22,332 nucleotides of DNA from a virus. Below are positions 7,706 through 22,332 of the stretch, one piece after another (positions within the stretch are counted from its first letter, which is position 1; each line of letters starts with the position of its first letter). The DNA lies in IMG/VR virus record IMGVR_UViG_3300002141_000001, positions 1 through 22,332 of that record, one strand, 5' to 3'. The translations under genes and the position numbers were made by a program. The notes below the pieces were generated by a model. That model had not been told where the DNA came from, searched no databases, and was given only the letters and a program-made list of their open reading frames with translations.

Positions 7706-8139
7706 TATTTGACCCAAATTTCGTCTTGTTTACGATAACCAAATTTGGAATAATCTACATCTGGGCTAGTTACCAATTTGCTCATGGTGTAATACTTAAT
7801 CCGCCCTATTGTTTTTAATAGTTCTCCATATTCGTTATATTCTTTTAATAATTTATATCCTGCCCTTGAGCCACGATTTTCGGGTTTTACATACCAAGCT
7901 AATTCATGTAACCCAAATATTCTATCCGACCAAATACACGGAAGAATAATGGACATAAGTATTCCGTAATTATCCGCCATAAATATAGCGCCTCGGCCAG
8001 CAAAGATTTCGTCTAGCAATTTATTACCATATTCCATATCCGAGTATGAATGGCAATAATCTACCGGACTCTCATCGGCAAACTGTTTCATCAAATCAAT
8101 AATTATTGGTTTGTGAAATTTTGTTGCCCGATAAATCAT
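7705..8139 (-). CDS. GNAT-family acetyltransferase in the tail tip cluster
   Basis: A 144-residue protein that starts at ATG 8139, overlapping the previous stop as ATGA and the next start as TAATG. It shows the GNAT layout: a helical N-terminus (FHKPIIIDLMKQFADES), central strands (AIFMADNYGILMSIIL), strand and acetyl-CoA loop HELAWYVKPENRGSRAGYK at 78-96 with RGSRAG as the pyrophosphate-binding turn, and a terminal FGYRKQDEIWVK strand. The loop has Arg where the usual R/Q-x-x-G-x-G/A motif has its first Gly. GNAT genes do occur among tail genes of environmental phages, but their substrate is unknown to me. Possible targets are a virion protein, a host surface molecule or a host protein. It is not a structural protein by appearance. 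Confidence 0.8.
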   Translation of the reverse strand: MIYRATKFHKPIIIDLMKQFADESPVDYCHSYSDMEYGNKLLDEIFAGRGAIFMADNYGILMSIILPCIWSDRIFGLHELAWYVKPENRGSRAGYKLLKEYNEYGELLKTIGRIKYYTMSKLVTSPDVDYSKFGYRKQDEIWVK

Positions 8140-8729
8140 TGCGTCTTGCCAAAGTAATAGTTAATAGTTGAAATAAACGGAACTCTGTTCATGCTGGTGT
8201 CGCCGTTATTAAAAAATTGCCACGAATTATCATTTGTATAACGCCCGGCAGTTCTGTTCTGAAGTATTAACTGGATGGATGATGCACTAACAGTAATGAT
8301 GCCGACGTATGTCCTGAGTTCTTCCATCCATTCTTCGTTGATGGAAAATGAATTTATAAAACCATTGAAGAATTGGTAAAGCCCGCCGGTGCCTCCATCT
8401 GTAATTAAAACTTCATCTGTATCAAAGAAACCATGCCACGCTTCGATTTTCGCGCCTTTAACATTTTGCCCAAGAACCCAACCAAGCATTGCGGTATCTA
8501 TGCCCACTAAAGTGAACGTAGTTTCGTTTGCTGTGCTTTTAATATCTCGTTGAGCGCTTCCGACTTTCATCAACTGCCCAACAGCGTCAAAAGGCAAAGC
8601 ATCAACCGCAGGAATTGTTAAAGCCTTAGGTGTTGTTGCAAATCTATATACCGCGTCGCCAGTAGTCACACGAACAAAATCCGCGTATCGGATATTATTT
8701 GTTCCATCGACTGGAGCAATTACATTCAT
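8136..8729 (-). CDS. Tail tip/baseplate hub protein
   Basis: A 197-residue protein that starts at ATG 8729 (ATGA overlap with the preceding gene) and ends in ATGA overlap with the acetyltransferase. The N-terminal part (MNVIAPVDGTNNIRYADFVR, TFTLVGIDTAML) is beta-rich. The middle contains FDTDEVLITDGGTGGLYQFF and FINSFSINEEWMEE, and the end contains ILQNRTAGRYTNDNSW and GDTSMNRVPFI. This last pair resembles the closing segment of phage hub proteins related to DUF2163 or lambda gpL, where a Arg-x-TND motif and a later GD..F/M..VP motif occur. Its place two genes after the tape measure protein is that of lambda gpM/gpL. It probably forms a ring at the tail end. The exact family is uncertain. 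Confidence 0.65.
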   Translation of the reverse strand: MNVIAPVDGTNNIRYADFVRVTTGDAVYRFATTPKALTIPAVDALPFDAVGQLMKVGSAQRDIKSTANETTFTLVGIDTAMLGWVLGQNVKGAKIEAWHGFFDTDEVLITDGGTGGLYQFFNGFINSFSINEEWMEELRTYVGIITVSASSIQLILQNRTAGRYTNDNSWQFFNNGDTSMNRVPFISTINYYFGKTQ

Positions 8730-9406
8730 AACACCGCCTCAAATGCTACGAAATCCCCGCTCCATTGAATAAACGAATCATTCTGTATTGGAATCAATGT
8801 ATAGGTCGGATAACTCCGAAGAATAACGCAAAACGTAGTGCCGATATAAGACGACCCACCCAAAGAAACAGTCGTGCCAAACTCGCCAATAACAGCACTG
8901 ACGGGGCTTACCAGTGGAGTTAGCAAGCTGCGGTGAACCGGAATATTAACCGTTGAGCCGCCGCCTCTCTGTACGTTCGCCGTGGCTATATAAGCATAAC
9001 GCCCAACCTGACAAAAATCTCCTATCTTAACGATATACGCGGAACTGGAAATCGAGGGTAGTGAACCTAGCACCAAATTGTTATTTGCGGAGGAAGTCTG
9101 CCAGGCACAGGCGCTAATCTGTCCGGAAGTCATATCGCCTTGATACTCGATATAGTTACTCCAGCCAGTAGTGCTAAAGTTAAGATATTGCTCTAAGGCT
9201 TTATCCGGCACTCGCAAGCTACTAAGTAAAGACCGGCTTTCAGAATACCGAAGGTAGTTCATCGGCTTCATGGTGAAAGCAAAAGGAACTACCGTCAGTT
9301 GTTCTGAAGTATTGATCCTTTGATTCCGGCTAAGAACCTGCCCGATAAATCTTTGATCGTTTATCCCGACGGATTCCGCTATAGCTAGTATTTGATTAAG
9401 GCTCAT
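8726..9406 (-). CDS. Distal tail protein-like tip component
   Basis: A 226-residue protein that starts at ATG 9406, overlapping the tape measure stop as TAATG. It begins with MSLNQILAIAESVGINDQRF, then LTVVPFAFTMKPMNYLRYSE and SLRVPDKALEQYLNFSTTGW, followed by a beta-rich C-terminal half ending in IPIQNDSFIQWSGDFVAFEA. The gene directly after the tape measure gene usually encodes the distal tail protein (or lambda gpM), which makes the ring between tube and tip. The opening helices and the closing beta-rich part would fit that role. I do not recognise a named family, so the call rests on position and fold impression. Confidence 0.55.
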   Translation of the reverse strand: MSLNQILAIAESVGINDQRFIGQVLSRNQRINTSEQLTVVPFAFTMKPMNYLRYSESRSLLSSLRVPDKALEQYLNFSTTGWSNYIEYQGDMTSGQISACAWQTSSANNNLVLGSLPSISSSAYIVKIGDFCQVGRYAYIATANVQRGGGSTVNIPVHRSLLTPLVSPVSAVIGEFGTTVSLGGSSYIGTTFCVILRSYPTYTLIPIQNDSFIQWSGDFVAFEAVL

Positions 9407-12081
9407 TATCTACTCGTGGGCAAAGACCGCGCAGCGGATTGATTGGCGGCGTAAACAGATAGCTTATTTCGCGCTAGGAACTGCGTAGCCGACTGCGTAT
9501 CAATGGCTTGCATGTTCGCTATGTATGGACCGTTGTAAGTGATCTGAGGCCCTCCCATGGCTCCTGCAAGCTGATTATTGGGGATAACTGTTCCTGCGCC
9601 TTTTGGAATAATCAATTCAGGACCACGCTCGCCTACCATGTAAGGCGTATTTGCAGCTACAGGCCCCCCGTCTGCCATGTAACCTCCAGCAGCGACTGCT
9701 GCAAAATTTGCGCCACCACCAGCAGAACCAATATCAGCGGCAAGGGATGAGTTTCCGCCACCAAATAATGATCCCAAACCGCTAAACATTGAAGTTATTT
9801 GCGCCCGCATTTGTATTCTGATTAAGTCTTTAATTATGCTAGAGGCTAAATCCTTAAACGACAATTTTCCGGTAGTAACAAACTGGTCTAATGCGCGGTC
9901 CATATTGGTTGTAAAAGACGTAAACGCTTCTTCGCCCGCTTTAAAAGCATTGGACGCATTTGCGGAATACTGCCTGAAAGCATAATCCCATCCTTCTACA
10001 AAACTGCGTTGTCTTGTAGCTTCGTTTTCTAGTGAAATATTACGCTCTGCTGATAATTCTTTTTCGCGCTTTATTGCTTCATCTATGCGAGTGCGTTCCT
10101 TGTCGGCTCGTTCGCCTACGCCGTATCTGTCTGTTACTGCAAGCCGTTCCTGTTCCAATTCCAACAATCTTCTATTTAATTCTAGCAATTCATTTTGTTT
10201 TTTGTATTCAAGATCAGTCAAATATATACGCTTATCTTCTAACGCTATTTTTGCTAAATCAAATTCATGTAGTCGTGCGGACGTGATGCTTTGTGCGTCA
10301 AGGATGCGGAATTCTTTTTCTTTGTTTGCAATTCTTAATACATCACGAGCAGCAGCATCGATTTCAATTCGAGCTATTTTTGAACGCGCATCTACTTCTA
10401 TTGCTGCTATCGCCGCTGCTGATTGACCTGTGGGACGTAACTTTTCATTTTTATCTGCTATAACTTGTGCAATTGCTTTTTCTTTTTCTAGCAAAATTGT
10501 TTTGGCTTGAATCTCATATTGACCAGTACTCACCGCCAACAATCTAAGATCAAATGCTTTCTTTTCAAACTCAAATAATTCTTCCTGCAATTTTGTTTGC
10601 CGTTTTAAATCCTCAATTTCCTTATCTCTACTTGCTGCTGCAAATTTTTTCGCGCCTTCCGATTTTTTATAAGCGGTACTTAACGCAATTGCTGCTTTTT
10701 CTCCGGCAACAGCTTCTAGTTCTACCGAATCTTTAGCCGCCACTCGATCTGCTGCATATTCAGCAAGAATTTTTGCTTTTCCTTTTTCAAATTCTATATC
10801 CGCTTTTTTAATCTCCAGCGCCCATTTATCTGTCGTTAAACCTTCAATTTTTAATTGATTCTCTCTCTCCATTATTTTTAATAATGCAGCGGCAGCGGCA
10901 TTCTTTGCTCGTGCAGCGTCAGAATCTCTTGATGCTTTAGCTGCATCTTTTTCTTCTTCATCTTCTTTTGTTGTATCAGGAGGAGTTAAATTAAGTCCTC
11001 TGTCTGGAATTTTTGTCTTAAGTAATTCTATTTCTTTGTTAATCTTAGCTATTTGTCTTTTACTAATTTCACTAATTGCTGTACTTCTTCCTTCGAACTG
11101 TTGTTTTTCTAATTCTAATTCGGCTATCCGTTCTTCAGGGTCTTGTAGAATTTTATTTAGGATTGCATAAGCCGCAACAGCGCCGCCTACTAATGCAATG
11201 CCTTTTGCTCCACTTAGCGCAGCCATCGTACCGGCTATTTTTGCGCCTGTTCCCATCGCTTTATTTAATGCAATAAACAGACCAACTATTTTTGTTAATT
11301 GAGTAACGACCGCAACACTTGCAATAGCTAACAACGCTATCTTAAATTGCTCTACCGATCTTTTGCCTTCACCGATAAACGGACTAACCAAATCAGAAAA
11401 AGCAATCTTGAGATTATCCATTGACGATTTTAAATTGTCGGATAACTCGCCAAATCTTTTTAGACCATCTTCATGTTTCTTGAAAGCAGCGGTTGATTGA
11501 TTTATTTTGTCCGATAATTCTGCAACACCAAGACCAACGCCGCCCTTACCCATCACCTCGCGCAATAACTTTATTCTTTCTGTTGTAGACCCTATATTTT
11601 TAAGCCCAATAAATACTTTGTTCAAAGCATCTTCAGGTTTTGTTGTTTGCAATTCTGCAAAGCTAATTCCGAGTTTGCGGAATGTTTCAATGACCGGCTC
11701 GCTACCTTTTTTGCCTTCTTCTATTTTTGTAAACAAAGTAGAAAGCATCTTTGCTGCGCTTTCTGCTTTGCCGCCGGATGTTTGCAGCGCGTCGCGGAAT
11801 TGCAATACTTTCGATATGGTTATATCAAAGCCTTCGGCTAGGTCTTTTACTTCATTTGCGTAAGCTGCTGTACTAGCAAATAAAGCAGTAAAGCCTATTG
11901 CCCCAACAGAGGTAATCCCGCCAAGCGTTTTAAAATGCTGGCTTAAAACTGAAAGTTCAGACGTTAAGTTTTTAAACGCGCCCTGCAAGTCTTTGGCTTG
12001 CGCTTTAGCTTTCGCTGTCGCCTGATCCCACTCTACTGTGACTAATCCGAGTTTTACGGATAGCGAACCAATAACTGCCAT
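9406..12081 (-). CDS. Tape measure protein
   Basis: An 891-residue protein at the place expected for the tail length ruler. It starts at ATG 12081, two bases after the stop of the gp10-like gene. Residues 1-50 and 80-240 are helical and charged. Residues 247-310 are hydrophobic (FKIALLAIASVAVVTQLTKI, GIALVGGAVAAYAIL) and could cross a membrane during DNA entry. Residues 315-700 are dominated by charged coiled coil (LELEKQQFEGRSTAISEISK). The C-terminal part (FTTNMDRALDQFVTTGKLSF, IQMRAQITSMFSGLGSLFGG) matches the lambda-type tape measure C-terminal domain, and GGYMADGGPV...YMVGERGPELIIPK is a usual ending. At about 0.15 nm per residue the tail would be near 130 nm. The protein fills the tail tube and is ejected with the genome in relatives. 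Confidence 0.95.
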   Translation of the reverse strand: MAVIGSLSVKLGLVTVEWDQATAKAKAQAKDLQGAFKNLTSELSVLSQHFKTLGGITSVGAIGFTALFASTAAYANEVKDLAEGFDITISKVLQFRDALQTSGGKAESAAKMLSTLFTKIEEGKKGSEPVIETFRKLGISFAELQTTKPEDALNKVFIGLKNIGSTTERIKLLREVMGKGGVGLGVAELSDKINQSTAAFKKHEDGLKRFGELSDNLKSSMDNLKIAFSDLVSPFIGEGKRSVEQFKIALLAIASVAVVTQLTKIVGLFIALNKAMGTGAKIAGTMAALSGAKGIALVGGAVAAYAILNKILQDPEERIAELELEKQQFEGRSTAISEISKRQIAKINKEIELLKTKIPDRGLNLTPPDTTKEDEEEKDAAKASRDSDAARAKNAAAAALLKIMERENQLKIEGLTTDKWALEIKKADIEFEKGKAKILAEYAADRVAAKDSVELEAVAGEKAAIALSTAYKKSEGAKKFAAASRDKEIEDLKRQTKLQEELFEFEKKAFDLRLLAVSTGQYEIQAKTILLEKEKAIAQVIADKNEKLRPTGQSAAAIAAIEVDARSKIARIEIDAAARDVLRIANKEKEFRILDAQSITSARLHEFDLAKIALEDKRIYLTDLEYKKQNELLELNRRLLELEQERLAVTDRYGVGERADKERTRIDEAIKREKELSAERNISLENEATRQRSFVEGWDYAFRQYSANASNAFKAGEEAFTSFTTNMDRALDQFVTTGKLSFKDLASSIIKDLIRIQMRAQITSMFSGLGSLFGGGNSSLAADIGSAGGGANFAAVAAGGYMADGGPVAANTPYMVGERGPELIIPKGAGTVIPNNQLAGAMGGPQITYNGPYIANMQAIDTQSATQFLARNKLSVYAANQSAARSLPTSR

Positions 12082-12083
12082 GA

Positions 12084-12614
12084 TTAACCTTTTTTCTCAG
12101 CTATTTTCGAAATAGCCGCCCAAACCGAAACACCTAATCTATCTTGCACATTTTTAATATTTGTATCCAATGCTGGACGCAGAAACGGTCGCGCCGCTAC
12201 ATTTGCTGTCCCAAATTCTACCGCCAAACCAACCGGCGCATGTTTCCATGCAGTTCTAAAACGACCACTTTTGCTTAATGTTGTTTTGGCTTGGCTATCG
12301 TCGCGTTTTGGATTTAGTGTAACTCGCGCAAGAAACAATTCGCCTCGATAGGAAAGGCTTGATTTGTCTCTGGCTTGCGGTCTATGCACTTTCATATAAA
12401 TATGATCGAGCATTTGCCCTGTGTCTACATGCGCGGAAGCATTTGATCTTGCTTGTTCATAGACAGGAGCTATAGCAAAACCCATAGCTTTCTTCCAGAT
12501 GGATTCGGTTTTGCCTTTGCCTATTTCTTCGGCAAGTTTCTCCATCCGTTTAAACAGATCATCGAACCCTGTTGTCCCGGTAGCGCCTTTGTTTTGCGGC
12601 GAAAACTCAGCCAT
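12084..12614 (-). CDS. HK97 gp10-like tail completion protein
   Basis: A 176-residue protein from ATG 12614. A longer frame goes back to ATG 12656, but only the ATG at 12614 has a G-rich Shine-Dalgarno-like stretch before it and the short overlap with the upstream stop that is typical here. The N-terminal part is charged and helical (FDDLFKRMEKLAEEIGKGKT). The diagnostic part is SNASAHVDTGQMLDHI and then VGLAVEFGTANVAARPFLRP, the EFGT...A.PFLRPA signature of the HK97 gp10 family, which completes or connects the tail end to the head. In most relatives this gene lies before the tail tube gene. Here it lies after the chaperones and directly before the tape measure gene. Confidence 0.85.
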   Translation of the reverse strand: MAEFSPQNKGATGTTGFDDLFKRMEKLAEEIGKGKTESIWKKAMGFAIAPVYEQARSNASAHVDTGQMLDHIYMKVHRPQARDKSSLSYRGELFLARVTLNPKRDDSQAKTTLSKSGRFRTAWKHAPVGLAVEFGTANVAARPFLRPALDTNIKNVQDRLGVSVWAAISKIAEKKG

Positions 12615-12966
12615 GATTGAACCGCCCCACTTTAAATCCAGGAGCTTGCGTAACATACGCCATCAAGTTACTGCTTGCTATTTCGCTTGGCGTTGGTTCG
12701 TAGTCGGGATTGTTTGCGTATTCGTTGATACACGGAAAGATTTGATCTGAACGATACGCAGCCGCATTTTGTGGGCGCATATAGTTAAAGACTGCGGTAG
12801 TCACTGGCACTAAAGCATCGAAGATGCCTTTGTTTCCGAGCATACCGTCAGCGTACATGACTTGAATCTCCGCAAATAATTCTTCGTCTATTGAATCTAT
12901 ATATTCTTGTGTATGTCCGTTAAACACCATCGCAGCTGCTACCTGCGCCCGCAATGAACGTCTTAG
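12607..12966 (-). CDS. Tail assembly chaperone, -1 frameshift extension (T part)
   Basis: This frame encodes 119 residues reached by -1 frameshifting from the upstream chaperone. Read from base 12966 it gives LRRSLRAQVAAAMVFNGHTQ and continues to TGA at 12607-12609. Read alone it could only start at a TTG (12954) without a ribosome binding site, so independent translation is unlikely. The full fusion would be 292 residues (173 + 119). The sequence (HTQEYIDSIDEELFAEIQVM, MLGNKGIFDALVPVTTAVFN) is not one I can place in a named family. Position between the G-like gene and the tape measure gene, and the frameshift, match lambda gpGT, where the T domain contacts tail tube protein and G coats the tape measure protein. 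Confidence 0.8.
   Translation of the reverse strand, partial: LRRSLRAQVAAAMVFNGHTQEYIDSIDEELFAEIQVMYADGMLGNKGIFDALVPVTTAVFNYMRPQNAAAYRSDQIFPCINEYANNPDYEPTPSEIASSNLMAYVTQAPGFKVGRFNHG
12931..12947 (-). other. Weak hairpin downstream of the frameshift site
   Basis: CGCAG at 12931-12935 and CTGCG at 12943-12947 can pair into a 5-base stem with a 7-base loop on the transcript. It starts about 18 bases after the slippery heptamer, farther than the 5-9 bases usual for stimulators. It may add to frameshifting or mean nothing. Confidence 0.3.
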
Positions 12967-13484
12967 TTTTTTTTTGCGGTTTTGTAGTCTGGCTTTATCG
13001 CGCTTTCAATTGCTTCCAATATCTCCTTAATTGCAATGTCTGGAAATTCTGCCGATATTTCTTCAAATGATTCTGTTATTAAATCGCCAGTTTCAGATTG
13101 CAACAAATGGAAATATTCTTCTACTCTGCTTTCCCATATTGCAGTATATGTTGCTACCTGTTTGACCGATGTTCCATTTACTTCTATATCTTTGTCTTTT
13201 ATAACAATGGTTTCTTTATCGGAATTCAATGCTTCTAAAAAACCTTCCGCACTATCTTTAACAACCGCTAAAATAGGTGTCACCAAAGTTTGGTAAATAG
13301 CTTCAATTTTTTCTTCAGATGGACTCGTTATTCTTAAAGAAATTTCTTCCATTTCTTTTTTTAAAGGAATCCGCACTTTAAGATCAAACGCAGCATCGCC
13401 CAATTTAATATTGAGCGTCCGTATTTTTGATTGGTCTCTTACTTTGTCGTATTGTTTTCCTAGCTTACTTGCTAACTTGCTCAT
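12963..13484 (-). CDS. Tail assembly chaperone (G-like)
   Basis: A 173-residue protein from ATG 13484 to TAA 12963-12965, overlapping the upstream gene by 20 bases. It begins with a basic segment (MSKLASKLGKQYDKVRDQSK), followed by a beta-like part (IRTLNIKLGDAAFDLKVRIP) and long charged helices (PSEEKIEAIYQTLVTPILAV; ITESFEEISAEFPDIAIKEI). Its last codons form a run of nine As and then C. This is the site of a -1 frameshift. In lambda, phage HK97 and relatives the gene in this place makes a short G protein and a smaller amount of a longer GT protein that keep the tape measure protein soluble and recruit tube subunits. I infer the same here; sequence similarity to G is too weak to see by eye. 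Confidence 0.8.
   Translation of the reverse strand: MSKLASKLGKQYDKVRDQSKIRTLNIKLGDAAFDLKVRIPLKKEMEEISLRITSPSEEKIEAIYQTLVTPILAVVKDSAEGFLEALNSDKETIVIKDKDIEVNGTSVKQVATYTAIWESRVEEYFHLLQSETGDLITESFEEISAEFPDIAIKEILEAIESAIKPDYKTAKKN
12966..12972 (-). promoter_or_regulatory. Slippery heptamer A AAA AAC for -1 frameshifting
   Basis: On the minus strand the codons GCA AAA AAA AAC TAA end the chaperone frame. The last seven bases before the stop read A AAA AAC, the canonical X XXY YYZ slippery form. Slipping back one base on AAA AAC allows the frame to continue CTA AGA CGT TCA TTG into the open T-like frame. The stop codon directly follows the site, so ribosomes pause there and both products are made. 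The position in the genome is exactly where this device occurs in lambda-like and HK97-like phages. Confidence 0.85.
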
Positions 13485-13734
13485 TAGATTCGCCTTTTAT
13501 CAGTTTTTTGTATATGGAATCATTTAATCGCAGCACGTATTCCGTCACTTCATCCGGTGACATATCTGCTGCGTGATTCTTTGCTATTTCGTAGCAAAGA
13601 TTTATTCCTATTATTTTTTGTTGTTGAAACCCAAACCAGTTCTTAGCGCCGGAACTGGATTGGGTTATTAAATAAGCCAGTAAATCTTTTGATCCTGTAT
13701 TGTCCATGTATTTTTTTAAGCGTTCGTTGTCCAT
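13465..13734 (-). CDS. Small protein between tail tube and chaperone genes
   Basis: An 89-residue protein from ATG 13734, overlapping the tail tube stop by 19 bases and the chaperone start by 20 bases. The sequence is helical and polar (MDNERLKKYMDNTGSKDLLA, LITQSSSGAKNWFGFQQQKI, MSPDEVTEYVLRLNDSIYKK). It has no signal peptide or membrane segment. The gene lies in the tail assembly region, so a role in tube assembly or chaperoning is possible, but I do not recognise the family. A second methionine at codon 10 is an alternative start. Its double overlap argues for a real coupled gene. Confidence 0.7.
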   Translation of the reverse strand: MDNERLKKYMDNTGSKDLLAYLITQSSSGAKNWFGFQQQKIIGINLCYEIAKNHAADMSPDEVTEYVLRLNDSIYKKLIKGESNEQVSK

Positions 13735-14240
13735 CCATAAGAACTGCCGCCAACCGGATGCAACGTAAACATAAACTTCCCTTCAGCAGCCGGTGACATA
13801 TCCCATTGCAAACCACCGACACGAGCGTTAAATGCGTAAGCAACGGTATCAGTACCATCGTAAACCGCAATAACATACGTACGAATAACCAAACCGCTAT
13901 AACCGTCCGCTCGAATTTGAAGCATTGCGGCATCAGCAGAATTCCACGCACTAGTTATAGTCATAGACGTAGGCTGATTTTGCGTAGTTATTTTTGCCCC
14001 AGTACGTTGACCTGCAATGCCATATGCCGCCACTGCATCATCACTACCAAAAGCCGGGATTGCTTCTACAAGAACCTGCATACCTGACTCGCCAGAGCCA
14101 CCAGCGGTGGTGCCGACAATCGTGGTTACTTGAGCAGCCCAAGTCCCAAGCTGCGTGTCGGTTAATGGAGTCGGCGTTGCATCGTCTTGCATCCACAACG
14201 TAGCAACATAACCTGGCAAAACTGTATCAATTAGGGGCAT
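13716..14240 (-). CDS. Major tail tube protein
   Basis: A 174-residue protein from ATG 14240 behind the best ribosome binding site of the tail region (GAGGT, seven bases before the ATG), as expected for a protein made in many copies. It is rich in Gly, Thr and Ala, with alternating strands: MPLIDTVLPGYVATLWMQDD, ITTQNQPTSMTITSAWNSAD, GLVIRTYVIAVYDGTDTVAY, and EGKFMFTLHPVGGSSYGW at the end. Size, composition and place between the tail-completion gene and the chaperone/tape measure genes fit the tube protein whose hexameric rings stack around the tape measure protein. The position rules out a head protein. I did not see a C-terminal Ig-like decoration domain. Confidence 0.8.
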   Translation of the reverse strand: MPLIDTVLPGYVATLWMQDDATPTPLTDTQLGTWAAQVTTIVGTTAGGSGESGMQVLVEAIPAFGSDDAVAAYGIAGQRTGAKITTQNQPTSMTITSAWNSADAAMLQIRADGYSGLVIRTYVIAVYDGTDTVAYAFNARVGGLQWDMSPAAEGKFMFTLHPVGGSSYGWTTNA

Positions 14241-14277
14241 TTTAATTACCTCAAAAAAAAGTTAATAAAATTTTATC
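14241..14277 (-). promoter_or_regulatory. Leader and strong ribosome binding site of the tail tube gene
   Basis: This 37-base gap is almost pure A/T. On the minus strand it holds a run of eight Ts and GAGGT seven bases before ATG 14240. A 12-base palindrome of A and T lies at 14265-14276. The gap interrupts the otherwise overlapping tail genes and probably allows high independent translation of the tube protein. I see no clear -35/-10 promoter. Confidence 0.55.
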
Positions 14278-14685
14278 TTATGCTGGAACGTAAAGAGTGC
14301 AATCCAGAATAATCTGGTTTAATCCCAATTCGTTGTCGTAAGTATTGTAAAGCCAAAAAACATCTGCTTTCGCTACGAAGAACTGATCTCCAAATTCACC
14401 AGAATAACCATGCAAAGATTGTAGTATGTCATTACTTAAATTGAAAGCATCACTCATTGCCTGGCTAAACACACTAATTTGGAACGTTGGTGTATCTATA
14501 CCTTTATTGTTTTGCGTTTGTCCCGTATAGACTGGTTGATGAACATTCCTTAATTGCCAAGTTAAAAACTGGCTTTCAGTAGCATAATTCCGGTTGAAGT
14601 TTGCATACACAGGAACGTTAACAATACTGGTTAATTGTGCTTGTATAGCTTCTGCGTAAACATAAGGGTTAAGCTGCGTAGTCAT
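14278..14685 (-). CDS. Tail completion/terminator-like protein
   Basis: A 135-residue protein from ATG 14685, overlapping the head-closure gene stop as ATGA. It starts with a helix (NPYVYAEAIQAQLTSIVNVP), continues with strands (SQFLTWQLRNVHQPVYTGQT, GIDTPTFQISVFSQAMSDAF), a helix (NLSNDILQSLHGYSG) and a final strand (NQIILDCTLYVP). This helix-strand-helix-strand order, the length, and the place directly before the tube gene resemble tail terminator proteins of the DUF3168/lambda gpU type, which cap the tube at the head-proximal end. The family identity is inferred from layout and is not certain. Confidence 0.6.
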   Translation of the reverse strand: MTTQLNPYVYAEAIQAQLTSIVNVPVYANFNRNYATESQFLTWQLRNVHQPVYTGQTQNNKGIDTPTFQISVFSQAMSDAFNLSNDILQSLHGYSGEFGDQFFVAKADVFWLYNTYDNELGLNQIILDCTLYVPA

Positions 14686-15026
14686 ACTGGGGTCGTTGGA
14701 TCATTGCGATAACAAAGCAATGTAACCTTCATCCTGTCGTTAGACTCTCTTATATCCGTTATACGCCAATCAAACCCGCGCCACGTAATGCTATACAAAT
14801 TCTGGTTATCTACAATGCTTTTAATGTTAGGCGTGTAGTTAAATGTTAAATTTACCAAATCCTGATACACACGATAGCGCTCGGATATTCTTAAACTATT
14901 TGATACATCAGCTACCAATGCTCTTGAGGTAAACCATTCCGTAATAGTCGTAGTGTACTCACCAACAGAATTTACTCCGTTGGTTACATTGTTAATGTCT
15001 ACATTTTCATATCGCGTAATAGCCAT
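14682..15026 (-). CDS. Head closure/head-tail joining protein
   Basis: A 114-residue protein from ATG 15026, overlapping the upstream stop as TAATG. Residues near 60-114 (YTPNIKSIVDNQNLYSITWR followed by GFDWRITDIRESNDRMKVTL) show the small beta-barrel pattern of head-tail joining proteins (lambda gpFII or SPP1 gp16 type; Phage_H_T_join), with the W-R-x-x-x-x-W-R-I-x-x-I segment followed by a strand that ends the protein. It would bind below the gp6-like connector and close the head after packaging. Position and length agree with this. Confidence 0.75.
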   Translation of the reverse strand: MAITRYENVDINNVTNGVNSVGEYTTTITEWFTSRALVADVSNSLRISERYRVYQDLVNLTFNYTPNIKSIVDNQNLYSITWRGFDWRITDIRESNDRMKVTLLCYRNDPTTPV

Positions 15027-15667
15027 TACATTATCAGCGGTTTATACGGCCTCAACAAAGCATCAACGCCAAAAGGAATACTTTTCAGCGCCACTTCGGT
15101 TGTATTAGAACGGTTATTATATAAATGGGTAAGCAGCAACAATCCAGCTTGTTTAATAACCGGATATTGCATGATCGAATTAGCCGGGACTGTGTACAGC
15201 ACTTCTAACGGATTTGCATTGTATTGATCTACCGTATTTGGCAAACTTTGCAGGATTACTCTATTGCCGGTCGCGTCATACCAATAAGTATTGGTTGCTA
15301 AAGCGGTTAACACCGGAGGCAGTCCAGACCAAAGACTTACAGAGTTGATTGCAGCCCCGCTACGGCCTTGCGAAACTTCAGGAAGGTCCAGATATACCGC
15401 ACTGCTTGTAAGGCCGGGGTTGCCGTAATAGATTCGATATTGGGTAGGAAATACAGCCATACCCAAGTAATCCTCAATGGCAAACCGAGTCGCAACTTCT
15501 AAACTAGTCAAATAAGAATCCTGAGATTCATCTTCAAACAAGTTTAGTTGCTGCGTAATTTCATCTAGCGTCAACCATTGAGTTACATAGTCTCTCGCCA
15601 CCTGTTCAATTTTTACATAATTAAACGGGTTGCGATTGGACGAATACGTTTGGTTTTCGACCGGCAT
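15026..15667 (-). CDS. gp6-like head-tail connector protein
   Basis: A 213-residue protein from ATG 15667, six bases after the second capsid gene. Residues 25-80 (DYVTQWLTLDEITQQLNLFE, SYLTSLEVATRFAIEDYLGM, FPTQYRIYYG) match the helical start of HK97 gp6-like proteins: a residue run that ends in TLDE or similar, then a helix with A-x-x-x-I-E-x-Y/F-L-G/T. The C-terminal helix (IKQAGLLLLTHLYNNRSNTT) followed by IPFGVDALLRPYKPL is also a family hallmark; many relatives end with a short 'p.g..aLl.pyr' segment. It forms the ring under the portal. No good Shine-Dalgarno precedes it, so it is probably translated by coupling to the capsid gene. Confidence 0.85.
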   Translation of the reverse strand: MPVENQTYSSNRNPFNYVKIEQVARDYVTQWLTLDEITQQLNLFEDESQDSYLTSLEVATRFAIEDYLGMAVFPTQYRIYYGNPGLTSSAVYLDLPEVSQGRSGAAINSVSLWSGLPPVLTALATNTYWYDATGNRVILQSLPNTVDQYNANPLEVLYTVPANSIMQYPVIKQAGLLLLTHLYNNRSNTTEVALKSIPFGVDALLRPYKPLIM

Positions 15668-15673
15668 GATTTT

Positions 15674-16912
15674 TTATGAGTGATAACAACGGACACCAGC
15701 AAAAACATCGCGGATTGTCGAACAAACGCGCTTCTCCGCAAACAGGGTTACATACCCCGGTTGTGTTTGATCGAACATCTGGATGTCCATTGTTTCATTG
15801 TCAGCTATCGTTACAAACTGATCCCACGCCGCAAAGTAAATTGCGAACTTACCGGCAGCAAGGTCGTCCATGTAGGGATTTATTCGTACTGGTTTCCCCA
15901 TCAGATAGACGGTAGAACTTGTCCCATCTTCACCTGCTTGATTAAGAAACAAACCTGAATTTGATGCAAGTTTACGCAACACCGCAAGAGTGGCGGGACT
16001 CATCATCCATGCACAAGTAGGATCAAGCAAATACTGCGGTGGCAGGGATGCGTATATGTCAGACAGATCATTAACAACAACTGCGCTTGCGCTTGCCAAA
16101 GTAAAAGTTAAAACGGTATGAATGCCGTTCGTCATTGCTATTCCGCTTGAACCAAATGCAGCAGCAGAATCCGAAGTGGTATAGCTGTTCAACCCACGCA
16201 AGCCCAACGTCCCGCCGTAATAGCCGGTAGTCGATGCTGCTTGGTCATTATTAAACATCATCGACAGAGCTTCTTGTTGAGCAAATTCCAAAGCAATGTC
16301 TCGCACAATAGATTCTTCAAGATTATTAACGTCCGACAGCATTGCAGTCCGAATTGGCACAGACGCTTGAATGGCTCTTAACGGCAATTGCCAAATTGAA
16401 GTCGAGTATCCGGCGGCAGCATTATTGCTGTTGATCGGGTAATAGCCCCACGGATTACCTACCGCGGTAATCGTGGTTTCTGAGGCAGTCGTATCACCAA
16501 GCACGTTGTAAGTGCCTGTGCCGCCAGTGCCGGTGCCTAGCGAACTAATATAAGTGCCAGCAGCAACACCAGTGCCGGAAAGGATTTGACCAACGCGCAA
16601 CGTGCCGCTAGTCACCGCCGAAACCGTCAACACCGAGGCAGCAATTGCACCAGTAACAACCGCCCCATTTTGGATATTGGTTGCATTACCAGTTTTAACT
16701 ACAAAGGTTTGGTCTGAACCGATTGTATCTACTACCCGCGCACCTGCTCCGCGAATAGGATTAAACATACGCAATGATGCAAAAGCATCATCGTAAATAT
16801 TTCTGCCGCCTATGCCAGAACCCGATCCGGTCAGCAAAGCAGCTTCTTTCAAGTTTACAGATGCTTTTCCATTCTTAAGCGCGGCTTTAATGGATTCCAG
16901 AATCAGGCTCAT
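15674..16912 (-). CDS. Second HK97-fold capsid protein with inserted module
   Basis: A 412-residue paralogue of the adjacent capsid protein. I chose ATG 16912 because a GGAA lies 8 bases before it; a TTG start at 16924 has no binding site. Both proteins share NP(I/L)RG, IWQ...P(I/V)RTA, EF.Q.EA.SM...DQ, YGGT.GLRGLN and DQT.PGY.T.F.EKRV; by eye about half the positions from IWQ to LRGLN are identical. Two differences stand out. It lacks most of the roughly 115-residue delta-type N-terminus (only about 40 residues precede YDDAF). It also has about 73 extra residues (about 80-152) between GNA and WGY, where the first protein has only a few residues; these read [18 protein letters not shown] and [10 protein letters not shown], a Gly/Thr/Ser-rich module seen in other phage virion proteins. 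It could be a minor shell protein, for example at vertices. Confidence 0.85.
16457..16675 (-). other. Gly/Thr-rich module inserted at the E-loop of capsid protein 2
   Basis: This part encodes residues about 80-152 of the second capsid protein, absent from its paralogue. It is flanked by GNAT and VGNPWGY, while the first protein goes directly from GNAGA to QWGY. It contains [19 protein letters not shown] and then [14 protein letters not shown] and TTASETTIT, the pattern of alternating strands and glycine turns. The location corresponds to the E-loop hairpin of the HK97 fold, which lies on the shell surface between subunits, so the module may be exposed on the capsid. The boundaries come from visual alignment. 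Confidence 0.65.
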
Positions 16913-16932
16913 ATTAAATTCCAATAAATGTT

Positions 16933-16957
16933 AAAAAGAGGGGGGATTTCTCCCCCC
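16933..16957 (-). terminator. Intrinsic terminator between the two capsid genes
   Basis: On the minus strand GGGGGGA, loop GAAA, TCCCCCC form a 7-base perfect stem with a GNRA-type tetraloop (16940-16957), followed by TCTTTTT (16939-16933). It begins five bases after the stop of the first capsid gene (16963-16965). This is a classic rho-independent terminator. The second capsid gene and the whole tail operon lie downstream, so it must be read through in part, or be bypassed by antitermination or by another promoter. The expected result is more transcript for the first capsid protein than for genes that follow. Confidence 0.85.
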
Positions 16958-16962
16958 ATCCT

Positions 16963-18288
16963 TTAGTCGTTTGCGGTGGTCGTCGAACGGTATGCTACAA
17001 GGGCCTGTGCGTCGTGTATCGACGATGCAACTCTTTTCTCACCAAAAAAAGTTATATAACCGGGGGCCGTTTGGTCGTACCTACGCATAACCATGTTCAG
17101 ACGGTCGATAATAACGTGACCACGCGCCCAATCTCCAAAGAAAATCGGATACAGGTTAGGTTTATCAACACCAGCGTAATTCGGCGTGTCCACGTATTTA
17201 TTAACGACCACATCAAAGCCGAGCAACTGACCGACAATGCCATCAGTCCGCGCCAGACCATCCAGATAGATCGGACGCCCGTTATCATCAACCAACCCGC
17301 GGATTGCTTGCAGTTCGATCGGGTTAATCAAGAAAGCGGCTGATTCAGTCCAGTATTGATTCGGCAGACTGTAGATCAGATTGATAACGTCGGCATACGT
17401 TACATTATTAGTCGTAGCGGAAGTGCCGTTTGTCGTAGCCTGATCGTAAGTAGCAATCTGCGACAAACCGTTAGTAGTAGCAACGCCGCTGCTGCCGAGA
17501 ATAACCGGATGTACAGTTCCGCCCGCATACGTGCTGGTGTAAGCGTACTGGTTCAATCCACGCAGACCATTTGTTCCGCCATACGTATCTGGCGAATCGG
17601 TTTGGTCATCGTTAAGAACCATTGATTGCGCTTCAACCTGGCTAAACTCAGCAAGCATGTCCGAAACAATGTTGGACTCAAGACCATCAATGTCGTCCAG
17701 TGTTGCAGTACGGACAGGGAATTGGCAGTTCAGGTCGCGCAGGATCATCTGCCAAATCAGCGTGTCCTGAGTAGTCGGGCTGCCGTTGTTCTGGATTGCA
17801 TAGCCCCATTGTGCGCCAGCATTGCCAATCTTTTGACGCAGTTGGTAAGCAGAGCCATCAGTTGATACGGTGCGCGAAACGCCACGCAACGGATTCGTCT
17901 GACGCAGAGCCACAAACACCGGATCATAACCAGTGCGTCCGCCAACGTTGTAGCCCGAACCGTATCCGGCAGGATTACCCAGTTGCGAACCTGTTTCTTG
18001 AAGGTATGCATCGTACTGGTCAGTGGATTCAAACATCTTGATTTCTTTTTCCGAACGAGCATTGGATTTGTAGAAATCGCGGAGTTGTTCTTTGACCGAA
18101 CGGTTAATTTCTTGGCTCAGAGTCTTAGCCGGTGCTTTGATAATAGCCGGTGCTTGCACTTCGGCAATTTTGGCTTCCAAAGCATTCAGTTTTTCAGTGA
18201 ATTCATTTTTAATGGCTTCAACCGATTCCGTAATCTTGGCAGTATTGCCCGCTTCAATTGCGTCTAGCTTTTCGAGGATTTTTTCCAT
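16963..18288 (-). CDS. Major capsid protein, HK97 fold
   Basis: A 441-residue protein from ATG 18288 with a good ribosome binding site (AAGGAA, about 6 bases before the ATG, overlapping the previous stop). Residues 1-100 are charged and helical (ILEKLDAIEAGNTAKITESV, FTEKLNALEAKIAEVQAPAI), like the delta scaffold domain that the prohead protease removes in HK97. A Gly/Tyr/Asn-rich linker at 101-120 (GSQLGNPAGYGSGYNVGG) may contain the cleavage site. The shell domain follows: NPLRG at 132-136, the E-loop region 145-180, IWQMILRDLNCQFPVRTATL, YGGTNGLRGLN at 236-246, LINPIELQAIRGL, and the closing YDQTAPGYITFFGEKRVASS. This order is typical of the Phage_capsid family. Position after the protease and the strong binding site support it as the main shell protein. 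Confidence 0.95.
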   Translation of the reverse strand: MEKILEKLDAIEAGNTAKITESVEAIKNEFTEKLNALEAKIAEVQAPAIIKAPAKTLSQEINRSVKEQLRDFYKSNARSEKEIKMFESTDQYDAYLQETGSQLGNPAGYGSGYNVGGRTGYDPVFVALRQTNPLRGVSRTVSTDGSAYQLRQKIGNAGAQWGYAIQNNGSPTTQDTLIWQMILRDLNCQFPVRTATLDDIDGLESNIVSDMLAEFSQVEAQSMVLNDDQTDSPDTYGGTNGLRGLNQYAYTSTYAGGTVHPVILGSSGVATTNGLSQIATYDQATTNGTSATTNNVTYADVINLIYSLPNQYWTESAAFLINPIELQAIRGLVDDNGRPIYLDGLARTDGIVGQLLGFDVVVNKYVDTPNYAGVDKPNLYPIFFGDWARGHVIIDRLNMVMRRYDQTAPGYITFFGEKRVASSIHDAQALVAYRSTTTAND

Positions 18289-18297
18289 TATTGTTCC

Positions 18298-19077
18298 TTA
18301 AATGCGTTTATTAAGAATTGACAGAAGTTCGCGTTGCTCAAGAGCCGCGAGAATCTCTGCTTCGGTTACCACCGCGTCAGAGTCACTCTGAAGTGGGGCT
18401 TGTTCAATCGGTTTTAGTTGGGCATCACGCTCAAGCAGCAACTTTTTGAACAGACTAGACGCGGTGGCCGCATCTTTTTTTGAACACCCTGCATCACGCA
18501 GAGATTTTTCAATTGTTCGCGGATTCGGCTGGCCTTTGTCATCAAAGTATTCCAGCTTTTGAATTTCCGATTGTAGATTGTTGGGATACATCACCACGGA
18601 TACTTCTCGCAAACCACCTTTTGTGATTTGGAAGTATCCTTTTTCATAATCTGCGTTTTGATCTAGCGGTACGCCATCTTCGTCGGTATATATTGCTTCG
18701 TCAGCATAAGCCCCAACAGAAACGCCACCGAACATCTTAGGTGATTCTTTTAGAATCGTATGCAGGTCTGAACCGTTCATCGTATTCATAAAAATACGAC
18801 CTTTTGCGGTCATGCCTTCTTCGTCGAAATTGAATTCGTCCCATTGGCCTACTGGCATTCCTTCGTCGTTGTGATTGAGGAACATCGGCAAAGGCTTATC
18901 AGATTTAGAGAATTCATCTGCCCATTGCGCGAAACCTTCGGGCTTGTAGTTGAATCTACGCCCGTCTGCGCCTTCACGAATGCCCCACGTGGTAGCTCTG
19001 GCTTCTATAGCGCCGATTGCTGCCTCATCTGCCGCCAGCTTTAGTTGAGCTTCGCAAATCAAAATGAGATTCTTCAT
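18298..19077 (-). CDS. Prohead protease (S78 family)
   Basis: A 259-residue protein from ATG 19077, the only methionine before the conserved core and preceded by GGGG about six bases upstream. The core has IEARATTWGIREGADGRRFN, the catalytic-type His69 in PLPMFLNHND, Ser120 in MFGGVSVGAY, and the LREVSVVMYPNN strand near 156-167 that ends the protease domain. These match HK97 gp4 (His65, Ser115). The remaining 90 residues (NPRTIEKSLRDAGCSKKDAA, EILAALEQRELLSILN) are a C-terminal extension present in many relatives. The enzyme would cut the delta domain off the capsid protein and itself during maturation. The gene overlaps the upstream small gene by 53 bases in another frame. Confidence 0.9.
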   Translation of the reverse strand: MKNLILICEAQLKLAADEAAIGAIEARATTWGIREGADGRRFNYKPEGFAQWADEFSKSDKPLPMFLNHNDEGMPVGQWDEFNFDEEGMTAKGRIFMNTMNGSDLHTILKESPKMFGGVSVGAYADEAIYTDEDGVPLDQNADYEKGYFQITKGGLREVSVVMYPNNLQSEIQKLEYFDDKGQPNPRTIEKSLRDAGCSKKDAATASSLFKKLLLERDAQLKPIEQAPLQSDSDAVVTEAEILAALEQRELLSILNKRI

Positions 19078-19207
19078 TAACTACCCCGTTTTTAATAGAT
19101 TGGTTATTATCTTTTATTTTATGGGGTCTGCCAGCTTTCTTCGGCAGTTTAACACTTGTTTTCTTTATTTGGGAAGCAAGCGTTTCCATCATGTCTTGTA
19201 TTGTCAT
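19025..19207 (-). CDS. Small basic protein between portal and protease
   Basis: A 60-residue frame from ATG 19207, which overlaps the portal stop as ATGA. It runs on for 53 bases inside the protease gene. The sequence is basic and polar: MTIQDMMETLASQIKKTSVK, then LPKKAGRPHKIKDNNQSIKN. The Lys/Arg-rich GRP core looks like an AT-hook that could touch DNA, but this is a short pattern and could be chance. I know no named family for it. The ATGA overlap with the portal gene is the best evidence that it is translated. It may also serve mainly to couple translation from portal to protease. Confidence 0.55.
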   Translation of the reverse strand: MTIQDMMETLASQIKKTSVKLPKKAGRPHKIKDNNQSIKNGVVNEESHFDLRSSTKAGGR

Positions 19208-20601
19208 GTAGTTCCGATATTCATTTTCTTAACTTGATTGCCGCCGCCACCACCTGTGTCTTGCGGCGAAGTACCGGAAATTAAATCAGTTGCTTTAGTA
19301 TCTTGTTTCAAATCGTCCGCGCCATCTTTCTTTTCAATGTTTAAGTATTCTCGCGCCTCATTCGGAGACATAATACCCGCGTTTACGCCAGAGACTACAA
19401 AATTCATCTGGTCTAGCGCAGCGCCCTTTAAGAAATCTTTAGTGTCAAACCTGATACACAGGTTCGGGTAACCCTTTAACAAATGCTGTTTTAGCTTTTG
19501 CTCAATGTTGATTACCATCGGATACATCGTGGTTTTATAAAACTCGTCAAGCATGGTTTGCGAATTGTTAAACTTTCCCTCGCCAAATGAAAGCATTTGC
19601 GGCGGCACACCAAACAATCCACAAATCCGCTTCATGGTTTGGTCTTTAAGTTTGGCACAATCAGCGTCTTGCAAAGTTAGCATGTCGATCGGCATGTATT
19701 TCATACCTTGATCGAGCAACATGCCTTGGCCCGCTTTGCTTTGGTCAACGTCACGACTGCCGGTCATCGCATTCCAGGCCTCTTTCAACCGCGCCGCGAC
19801 TTCTTTATATTTCGCGTCTGGAATAACCATATCGGTTGTAAATATACCCGACGGTTTAGCGCCATTTTGCATCACAAAATTAGCGTACAGGTCTATGTCT
19901 TGGTCAAGAGCAACCAATTCCGTAGCCAGAATGCCTTTGTTAAAGCCGCTGGAACCTTGCCAAGCGGCTTCTTTAACGTGCATCACTTGGTGCGAGGCTA
20001 ACGGCTGGTCTTTCGAGAACCCGTAGCTTGGGGTAGAGAGTCGGTACGAAGGATAGCGCGTCGGAGTCAGAATAACCGTTATTAAAGTCGAGTCAAGGTT
20101 ATACATTTCCAGCGGCGTAGTGCTAGCGTCTTTTTGGTCTTTCCTCCACCACAACGTAAAAGACTCGCCCGCTATATCTTGCCACATGCACCATTGATAC
20201 CAGAACTCGTACATGCTCTGGAAATTGTTAGGTTCACTCAGTAAGTTAGTGACCTGCTTTGCTTTGGATTTATCTCTGTTGCTTACGTCTGGAGATTTGA
20301 GAGCATCGACAAATGTACCGTCATCTGTTTTATACATAACGCTAACAGAAAGTTGCGCCAATGATCTAGCCTTAACGCCAACGCAACCCATTATTGTCGA
20401 ATTGCGGGTGAGAAGTGATATATCTACAGTCCGTCCTGCGACGGTAGAACTGCCGGTGGTGACATACAGCAGTTGTGAGGATACCGGACCTTTCTGCGAC
20501 GTAGCGAACAGCACTTGGTTGCCCAATTGCATCTGGCCTAGAACGGTATTTGCTTCGTTCCTAGCCGTTGTTTTTCGCTTGAATATGTCCAGAATAGCCA
20601 T
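19204..20601 (-). CDS. Portal protein (HK97 gp3 type)
   Basis: A 465-residue protein from ATG 20601 with GAGAG a few bases upstream, 19 bases after the terminase stop. The N-terminal part (MAILDIFKRKTTARNEANTV) and VKARSLAQLSVSVMYK precede the wing and stem; EFWYQWCMWQDIAGESFTLW is the typical helix, and GLFGVPPQMLSFGEGKFNNS with TMLDEFYKTTMYPMVINIEQ is the most conserved block of this family (about 330-375). SGVNAGIMSPNEAREYLNI near the end is also typical of the last helices. Portal rings of twelve subunits form the DNA entry vertex and bind terminase. The C-terminal tail is Gly- and Asp-rich and probably flexible. Confidence 0.95.
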   Translation of the reverse strand: MAILDIFKRKTTARNEANTVLGQMQLGNQVLFATSQKGPVSSQLLYVTTGSSTVAGRTVDISLLTRNSTIMGCVGVKARSLAQLSVSVMYKTDDGTFVDALKSPDVSNRDKSKAKQVTNLLSEPNNFQSMYEFWYQWCMWQDIAGESFTLWWRKDQKDASTTPLEMYNLDSTLITVILTPTRYPSYRLSTPSYGFSKDQPLASHQVMHVKEAAWQGSSGFNKGILATELVALDQDIDLYANFVMQNGAKPSGIFTTDMVIPDAKYKEVAARLKEAWNAMTGSRDVDQSKAGQGMLLDQGMKYMPIDMLTLQDADCAKLKDQTMKRICGLFGVPPQMLSFGEGKFNNSQTMLDEFYKTTMYPMVINIEQKLKQHLLKGYPNLCIRFDTKDFLKGAALDQMNFVVSGVNAGIMSPNEAREYLNIEKKDGADDLKQDTKATDLISGTSPQDTGGGGGNQVKKMNIGTT

Positions 20602-20620
20602 ATTTTCTCTCGTTTTTCTA

Positions 20621-22288
20621 CTAAAAACTTCTGAAACCGAAGCTATTATTTACCATAGGATTATCCAGAGCGCAATGGAACGCGATAATCATGGCGATAA
20701 TACCATCAACTTTTGCCGCGGTATCCGCAGAGTTCTTGCGAACCTTAATATTACCGTTTACATCAGTGAACACTTCGCAATTGCCTAGTTGCCATGCAAG
20801 AAATGGATTCCCATCGTGCTTGATGCTTTTATTAAGTATTAGCTTTTCAACCTGCTTAGAAGGATTGTTTAATACCGCCATGCCCTGCCCAACCTTTTTG
20901 ATAGGCATACCTTCATCGTGCAACCGAGCCACCAGCGAGGCGGCGTTGTAAGCGTCGTAGCCGATTTCTTTGGTCATCTGGTATCTATTTACCTGCTGCT
21001 TAATATATTCGCTGACCTCGCGGTCATCCATCACATTGCCTTCAGTTAACTTTAATATATTGGATTTTATAGCGGCGCGGAATATATCCTGATAGTGTTT
21101 CGGGACAAAATTAAAGCCTTCTTCCGGAAGAAAGAATTTAAATTCCGCTTCGTAATCGTCAGCAGCAAAACGCTTAAGAGTGCATACCGCATTCAAATCG
21201 CGGGTAGCTGCTAAGTCAAAACCTATAAATACTGCATCCGGTTCTCTGACTTCTTTAATTAAGCAAACCTTATCCTCCCACAACGACCGATCAATCCACG
21301 CCGCATTTGCGGATACGAATATATTAAGAGTCTTGCAAAGGAACTCATTAAGGCTTGCTGGCTTGTGCTTGGCTTCTTCTGCGCGTTGTTTAATCGCGTC
21401 ATCAAATACTGATATTCCATGCATCGGATTAGCCTTTAGCCAAGAGGCCGGATCTCGCCAATCGTCTTGCTGGTCGAGACCGTAAAGCAAACCAAACCAT
21501 TTAGGATTGTCTGCTGCCTCGCCGTGAAGAATGGCCTGGAACATCGCCATATCCTCGTAGAACTTTGTCTCTTTAGTAAATGAAGCCGTGGTAATGTAAA
21601 TCCGTAACGGGTTCTGCCTTGCCACCATGCCTGAGTGCAGCACCTCGATAGCGTTGCGGTCTACGATCTGCGCGGCTTCGTCAATGATTACACAGCTAGG
21701 ATTTTTACCGTCGCCAGTCTTTTTAGTGTCGCGGCTCAATGCTTTAAACATTGATTGCGAATCGCCTAGTTTTTTTATCTCAAATTTAGATAAATGGAAT
21801 TCGGCAGATAGCTCCGGCAACATTCCTTCGACCAGTCCTTTAGCCGCGTCGAATACGATGGTGGCCTGTTCGCGGTTCGTGGCTAGGGTAAAGACTTCGC
21901 TACCTGCCTCGCCAAAGCGCAATTCATAAAGCCCGATAACCGCAGTCAGAGTTGATTTGCCAGCCTTGCGCGGGATGTACAGGATTACATCCGACACCAT
22001 GCGCTTCGTGCGGTCAATCTTGTTGCGGAAGCCGTATATGCCGCAGATTAAGAAAATCTGGAACGGTTCCAGCGCAATCAGTTTTCCAGCCAGCGGGCCT
22101 TTGGTATGTCGGAGCGTGACGCAGAAATCTAGTACGTGCTGCGGGAATCGTTCGTCAAAGACATACGCCCATTCTTGGTTTTCGTATTGGTTAATGAACC
22201 GCTGGCAAGCTAGGCGAACATCGCGGCAAACGTCAATCTCACCCTTACTAACATCAATAGCGTATTTAACGCCCTGTTCCCAAATCAC
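20621..22288 (-). CDS. terL: Terminase large subunit
   Basis: A 555-residue protein from GTG 22288, whose start overlaps the stop of the upstream frame as GTGA. It has the packaging ATPase and nuclease parts in order: IPRKAGKST at 105-113 as the Walker A loop, CVIIDEAAQIVD at 199-210 as Walker B with the following Glu, ITTAS near 232-236 as the coupling motif, and the nuclease acidic residues in FIGFDLAATRD (Asp358), EIGYDAYNAA (Asp445) and KVDGIIAM (Asp528). The order and spacing match the Terminase_1 family used by HK97-like phages. It cuts concatemeric DNA and drives it into the prohead through the portal. The length is normal and all key residues are present. Confidence 0.95.
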   Translation of the reverse strand: MIWEQGVKYAIDVSKGEIDVCRDVRLACQRFINQYENQEWAYVFDERFPQHVLDFCVTLRHTKGPLAGKLIALEPFQIFLICGIYGFRNKIDRTKRMVSDVILYIPRKAGKSTLTAVIGLYELRFGEAGSEVFTLATNREQATIVFDAAKGLVEGMLPELSAEFHLSKFEIKKLGDSQSMFKALSRDTKKTGDGKNPSCVIIDEAAQIVDRNAIEVLHSGMVARQNPLRIYITTASFTKETKFYEDMAMFQAILHGEAADNPKWFGLLYGLDQQDDWRDPASWLKANPMHGISVFDDAIKQRAEEAKHKPASLNEFLCKTLNIFVSANAAWIDRSLWEDKVCLIKEVREPDAVFIGFDLAATRDLNAVCTLKRFAADDYEAEFKFFLPEEGFNFVPKHYQDIFRAAIKSNILKLTEGNVMDDREVSEYIKQQVNRYQMTKEIGYDAYNAASLVARLHDEGMPIKKVGQGMAVLNNPSKQVEKLILNKSIKHDGNPFLAWQLGNCEVFTDVNGNIKVRKNSADTAAKVDGIIAMIIAFHCALDNPMVNNSFGFRSF

Positions 22289-22332
22289 CCCATCGGCCCT
22301 TTAAGCATTCGCGCAATCGGGCTAGAGTTTTC
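22285..22332 (-). CDS. 3' end of upstream gene, probably terminase small subunit
   Basis: On the minus strand a frame enters from the right edge and reads ENSSPIARMLKGPMG before TGA 22287-22285, which overlaps the GTG start of terL as GTGA. Only 15 residues are visible, so the identity rests on position: the gene directly before terL is usually the small terminase subunit, which recognises the packaging site. The residues alone do not prove a family. The start and most of the gene are outside the window. Confidence 0.5.
   Translation of the reverse strand, partial: ENSSPIARMLKGPMG

Follow-up and report, generated by a model that had tools for sequence, protein, structure and literature searches.

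We describe a group of mostly uncultured tailed phages in which two related genes for HK97-family shell proteins, here MCP1 and MCP2, adjoin each other. The pairing of these genes, together with the position of a hairpin between them, suggests that the head combines a major with a minor shell protein. To our knowledge, such a design has so far been established only for phage T4. The material is an IMG/VR virus record of 22,332 bp (the whole of which we call the window), whose head operon lies on the minus strand and runs through TerL, portal, S78 protease, MCP1, MCP2, connector and head-tail genes, tape measure and tail genes. The features on which the argument draws are as follows:

20621..22288, minus strand: terminase large subunit (PF20441 and PF03354)
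19204..20601, minus strand: portal protein (PF04860, 200 bits), which served as a capsid-independent anchor
18298..19077, minus strand: prohead protease, Peptidase_S78 (PF04586, 33.9 bits), presumed to process both capsid proteins
16963..18288, minus strand: MCP1, HK97-fold major capsid protein, 441 aa, ATG start (PF05065, 105 bits; TIGR01554, 105 bits)
17974..18288 (approximate), minus strand: N-terminal coiled-coil/delta-type (scaffold-type) prodomain of MCP1, about residues 1-105, the region before the GGR motif when MCP1 is compared with MCP2, with a putative end
16940..16957, minus strand: GC-rich hairpin and U-tract (GGGGGGAGAAATCCCCCC TCTTTTT), terminator- or attenuator-like, directly 3' of the MCP1 stop codon
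15674..16912, minus strand: MCP2, second HK97-fold capsid protein, 412 aa, short N-terminus (PF05065, 74 bits; AlphaFold2 pLDDT 74; VIA Z 22.1)
16457..16678, minus strand: beta-rich 74-aa insert at the tip of the MCP2 E-loop, residues ~79-152, junctions uncertain by a few residues
15026..15667, minus strand: head-tail connector/adaptor directly 3' of MCP2 (PF05135, 27 bits; phrog_40/442)

The MCP2 reading frame itself extends over 15674..16924 on the minus strand, giving 416 aa from a TTG at 16924 and 412 aa from the ATG at 16912. In the tail module of the same strand, two small overlapping genes upstream of the tape measure (12963-13484 and 13465-13734), the first with a sub-threshold match to Pre_tape_measure, form a possible tail-assembly chaperone pair. 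A 144-aa gene at 7705-8139 (minus strand) has an N-terminus, MIYRATKFHKPIIIDLMKQFADESP, that by eye is GNAT acetyltransferase-like, and gave no Pfam match; the frame of a 1039-aa tail protein at 4598-7717 (minus strand, weak PF13550) opens with TTG and then MKYIVSFLLLFSFAPPAFA, which resembles the start of a signal peptide, and its TTG start may be wrong.

A sequence-only reading of this DNA had placed two tandem HK97-family capsid genes at these coordinates and lengths, and profile searches bear it out, with PF05065 scores of 105 bits for MCP1 and 73.7 bits for MCP2 against a cut-off of 24.2, and a TIGR01554 score for MCP2 of 80.7 bits against 27.5. MCP1 and MCP2 match each other with E = 9e-47 and 37% identity across 282 aa plus an N-arm segment, their profile-to-profile comparison reaches a probability of 100, and all three motifs that the earlier reading had quoted are present. 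To that reading our analysis adds the hairpin between the genes, the weaker ribosome-binding sites of MCP2 and the MCP2 E-loop insert. An AlphaFold2 model of MCP2, built with 48 relatives (pLDDT 74), has the full HK97 fold with N-arm, E-loop, spine helix, and A and P domains, so the structural objection raised beforehand, a second protein lacking the A and P domains, does not apply. Among solved structures, this model is matched best by the capsid protein of the Rhodobacter capsulatus GTA (RcGTA), with a VIA Z of 22.1 and an rmsd of 3.7 for 257 residues, spanning 46-412. The MCP1 model is poorer (pLDDT 59, with residues 139-215 below 50); the PF05065 profile covers residues 123-433 of MCP1, and its Foldseek matches are HK97 capsids. 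By both profile and fold, the RcGTA protein (Rcc01687; PDB 6TB9) is the closest solved relative of MCP1 and MCP2 alike, but in RcGTA a single capsid protein forms the hexamers and pentamers of an oblate head (PMC7296036), whereas here there are two capsid genes.

The two proteins differ most plainly at their N-termini. Ahead of the VGGR/IGGR motif that both contain, MCP1 has about 115 residues and MCP2 about 34, in agreement with the earlier observation that only the first protein carries a full scaffold-type prodomain. This prodomain, of ~100-105 residues, is mostly helical (helices 2-43 and 57-74 in the MCP1 model, which is poor as a whole); it presumably provides the scaffold function and is presumably removed by the protease. 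MCP2 keeps only ~30 residues at its N-terminus, and the stretch after them looks like the junction in MCP1. In both groups the consensus KEASALTGSG.GVGGR stands before the mature shell domain, and the S78 protease could cut both proteins at this segment.

How widespread is the pair? Searches of viral contigs returned 80 loci with the MCP2 query and 77 with the MCP1 query. MCP2 was present, in the same order, at all 152 MCP1 loci with at least 1200 nt downstream, and MCP1 likewise at all 159 MCP2 loci with at least 1500 nt upstream. Because searches with capsid genes select for capsid genes, we repeated the count from the portal, using 80 of 430 portal relatives (these 80 share 75% identity or more with the portal of the window), and found both capsid genes in 41 of the 41 loci with room for them. 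These figures are locus counts, with some contigs taken twice, and comprise 104 distinct intergenic sequences. Five contigs from metagenome-assembled genomes also carry the pair, but imply no host because their bin names disagree. The sole isolate that we found with the pair is Methylophilaceae phage P19250A (KX815270), where it is annotated as 'gene transfer agent capsid protein' (APC43890) and 'hypothetical protein' (APC43891); in this record, the second capsid gene went unrecognised. P19250A shares the window's gene order, and its portal and TerL are 67% and 68% identical to the window's, but its MCP2 lacks the E-loop insert. The search for genomes with the same pair that the sequence-only reading had proposed thus found many, and what had been taken for a feature of the window is fixed in a whole lineage, one isolate included. 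Phage Venkman, a reported relative of P19250A (PMC8163748), has no detectable match to MCP1 or MCP2; its annotated layout includes a separate scaffolding protein and tail tubes A and B. An estimate of how often PF05065 genes occur in tandem by chance, made on 185 genomes of a single class, was uninformative; it missed the known second copy in G001.

In a maximum-likelihood tree, unrooted and without outgroups, MCP1 and MCP2 form two reciprocal clades with 100% SH-aLRT, and the same split is recovered with seven distant single-MCP phages as outgroup (SH-aLRT 84 and 90%), which implies one split older than the sampled diversity. The earlier judgement that the copies are far from identical and not recent is upheld by this old split and by their 37% identity. 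Purifying selection is strong on both genes (median dN/dS 0.061 for MCP1, 0.083 for MCP2). A functionless recent or degenerate duplication, or an assembly artefact, can practically be dismissed, given more than 100 distinct loci, an isolate, five contigs from metagenome-assembled genomes, the divergence of the copies and the dN/dS values. Acquisition of MCP2 from a distant phage is not favoured either, since no known protein is closer to either than its partner, with 37% identity between the two and 21-32% to single-MCP phages; a source in an unsampled sister lineage is still conceivable. Pairwise identities of MCP1 and MCP2 correlate at 0.52, hardly above the 0.49 of MCP1 with the protease and the 0.49 of MCP1 with the connector, so no special coupling between the two is seen. 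Among L018, L020, L022, L091-L098 and the window, MCP1 is 73-82% identical to that of the window, yet MCP2 is only 53-70% identical and falls in different clades, which suggests that MCP2 has been exchanged between phages.

The genes are separated by 38 nt in the window (median 50 nt), and GGGGGGAGAAATCCCCCC followed by TCTTTTT is the top terminator-like element within window positions 8000-22332. A GC hairpin lies at most 60 nt from the MCP1 stop in 103 of the 104 distinct gaps, whereas shuffles have one in 2% of cases and five other gene boundaries in 0-6%; the terminator-like form, which has a T-run as well, occurs in 81 of the 104 (shuffles 2.8%, other gene boundaries 0-12%). The gaps contain 86 distinct stem sequences, and compensatory change is seen at all 7 consensus stem pairs in an alignment of 44 sequences. 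Because G and C blocks abound in it, the window's sequence taken alone gives a fold that beats shuffles by only a modest margin (z about -2); the evidence for the hairpin is comparative. With no room in the gap for a promoter 3' of the hairpin, expression of MCP2 should require read-through. The Shine-Dalgarno sites of MCP2 are also weaker (median -3.3 versus -5.6 kcal/mol for MCP1; P = 3e-11, a value that is indicative only because the loci are related and each start codon was taken as the one with the best Shine-Dalgarno in a 40-codon range). From these signals, we infer that MCP2 is made at a lower dose than MCP1.

We considered the hairpin as a device specific to the pair, but this idea is weakened by the presence of a GC hairpin after the capsid gene in all 7 single-MCP outgroup phages (L163-L169), which makes a step-down of expression at this point look general. 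The hairpin is therefore no signature of the pair; it marks MCP1 as occupying the ancestral major position, with MCP2 downstream of the step-down, and indicates that MCP2 lies in a low-dose part of the operon and not that pentamer dosage was the reason for its position.

How might two shell proteins share one head? A division of labour as in T4 needs the fewest assumptions, and we give about an even chance to a two-protein head with hexamers of MCP1 and with MCP2 in low copy, most probably at the vertices as the pentamer subunit. Given its long prodomain and strong ribosome-binding site, MCP1 would be the major subunit and would supply the scaffold function; MCP2, a diverged paralogue, would co-assemble on the MCP1-led prohead, enter virions and probably be matured by the same S78 protease. 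The dose of MCP2 would be kept low by the stopping or pausing of many transcripts at the hairpin after MCP1 and by its weaker ribosome-binding site. Assuming T=7, MCP2 would stand at the 11 pentameric vertices in ~55 copies beside ~360 of MCP1, in a role like that of gp24. A T=7 head needs no separate vertex protein, which counts against placing MCP2 at the vertices.

T4 itself is an apt comparison, as the sequence-only reading had proposed. In T4, 65 residues are removed from the N-terminus of gp23 but just 10 from that of gp24 (PMC9958956), and the two are present in 960 and 55 copies (PMC5694885); here the sequences show a long prodomain on the first protein and a short N-terminus on the second. 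As in T4, where the order is protease, major, vertex, two HK97-fold paralogues are retained downstream of the prohead protease, and a hairpin with a T-run follows the first capsid gene (gene 23 in T4). The likeness has limits: T4, a large myovirus, has a prolate head and encodes its scaffold in separate genes, its two shell proteins are only ~20% identical (PMC9958956), and gene 23 is followed by 812 nt that hold a homing endonuclease gene and leave room for a promoter of gene 24 before that gene starts, whereas MCP1 and MCP2 are much more similar, nearly abut and belong to small siphoviruses (38.7 kb in P19250A).

The main rival to a vertex role is that MCP1 and MCP2 mix in hetero-hexamers and/or hetero-pentamers with no strict position, as in the two-component Family 2B encapsulin of Streptomyces lydicus, in which two HK97-fold shell proteins encoded together (Enc1 and Enc2) are incorporated randomly into hetero-capsomers (PMC12407261). 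MCP1 and MCP2 do share the same HK97 core, with 62 positions at least 90% conserved in both groups, as compared with the low identity of gp23 and gp24, and few solved folds come closer to MCP2 than the two S. lydicus chains (Z ~17). However, that encapsulin is a cellular nanocompartment that comes without a phage head operon, prodomain or prohead protease, and where a two-component encapsulin would call for an operon without portal or terminase, our pair sits in a complete phage head-packaging operon. The long and short prodomains, the asymmetry of dose and the difference in constraint (mean column identity 66% for MCP1 and 49% for MCP2, which evolves faster and is less constrained) suggest distinct roles, and we regard free mixing as rather unlikely.

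Less probable still is that MCP2 is a low-copy protein with another local task, either near the portal or as a surface-display or reinforcement protein in a decoration-type slot. Its gene lies between the MCP and connector genes, where outgroups often encode a protein of ~90-140 aa, its E-loop accepts a 74-aa beta-domain and its N-terminus a ~100-aa fusion in four loci, and its faster evolution fits such a task; yet a complete HK97 fold with conserved N-arm, E-loop, and A and P domains argues for insertion into the lattice rather than binding to its surface, and the E-loop insert occurs in a minority of members. We give little credence to a third possibility, that MCP2 is at most scarce in the mature shell and serves instead as an assembly factor, a decoy or an alternative shell for other conditions. 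Virion data were found for no member, and MCP2 lacks the prodomain needed for scaffolding, both of which leave room for such a role, but the fixed co-occurrence, the strong purifying selection and the intact shell fold speak against it, as does the KEASALTGSG..VGGR segment common to MCP1 and MCP2, a feature to be expected of two proteins that are cut within the prohead.

If MCP2 does stand in the lattice, some members appear to have elaborated it. Among 176 parsed full-length MCP2 loci, the ~74-aa E-loop insert is found in the window and 31 others, at one site in all carriers; it is in no MCP1 and is absent from most MCP2 relatives. In the MCP2 model the insert has a pLDDT of ~75-87 and several beta strands. 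It matches phrog_21413, of unknown function, and a stretch of the tail-fibre family phrog_38233; no Pfam or PDB match was found, and the one weak phage match is to a gene of a Manatee Spring myovirus annotated as portal. The MCP2 of L011, missed by the parser and so not in that count, also bears the insert and groups with insert-free MCP2 in a tree built without the insert columns, which points to two separate gains or to transfer of the insert by recombination. If HK97 is a guide, the tip of the E-loop would lie on the outer surface, and in the window's subgroup the extra beta-domain would project outward beside each MCP2 subunit. Four loci carry the N-terminal fusion (MPKPT..GGTEVGVARARDI..PSAGRIAWALWGGDAGK), which matches phrog_2859, of unknown function, and would lie inside the prohead if the MCP2 N-terminus is internal as in HK97:

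L097, 5962-7287: MCP2 with N-terminal fusion
L118, 6365-7693: MCP2 with N-terminal fusion
L133, 5934-7262: MCP2 with N-terminal fusion
L134, 6077-7405: MCP2 with N-terminal fusion

For a siphophage lineage with tandem HK97 capsid genes we found no precedent in the open-access literature. With confidence just short of even, we propose that these small siphoviruses represent a second lineage of tailed phages in which HK97-fold paralogues have come independently to divide the work, with an obligate major/minor pair; an attenuator hairpin between the genes would set the ratio of the two proteins, and MCP2 would serve as a variable platform for surface display through its E-loop insert and N-terminal fusions. 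If this is true, hexamer and pentamer roles were divided on more than one occasion, with no need for a large prolate head. Public records overlook such systems when the second gene is labelled hypothetical, and P19250A offers a small, culturable test case for the replacement of quasi-equivalence by gene duplication.
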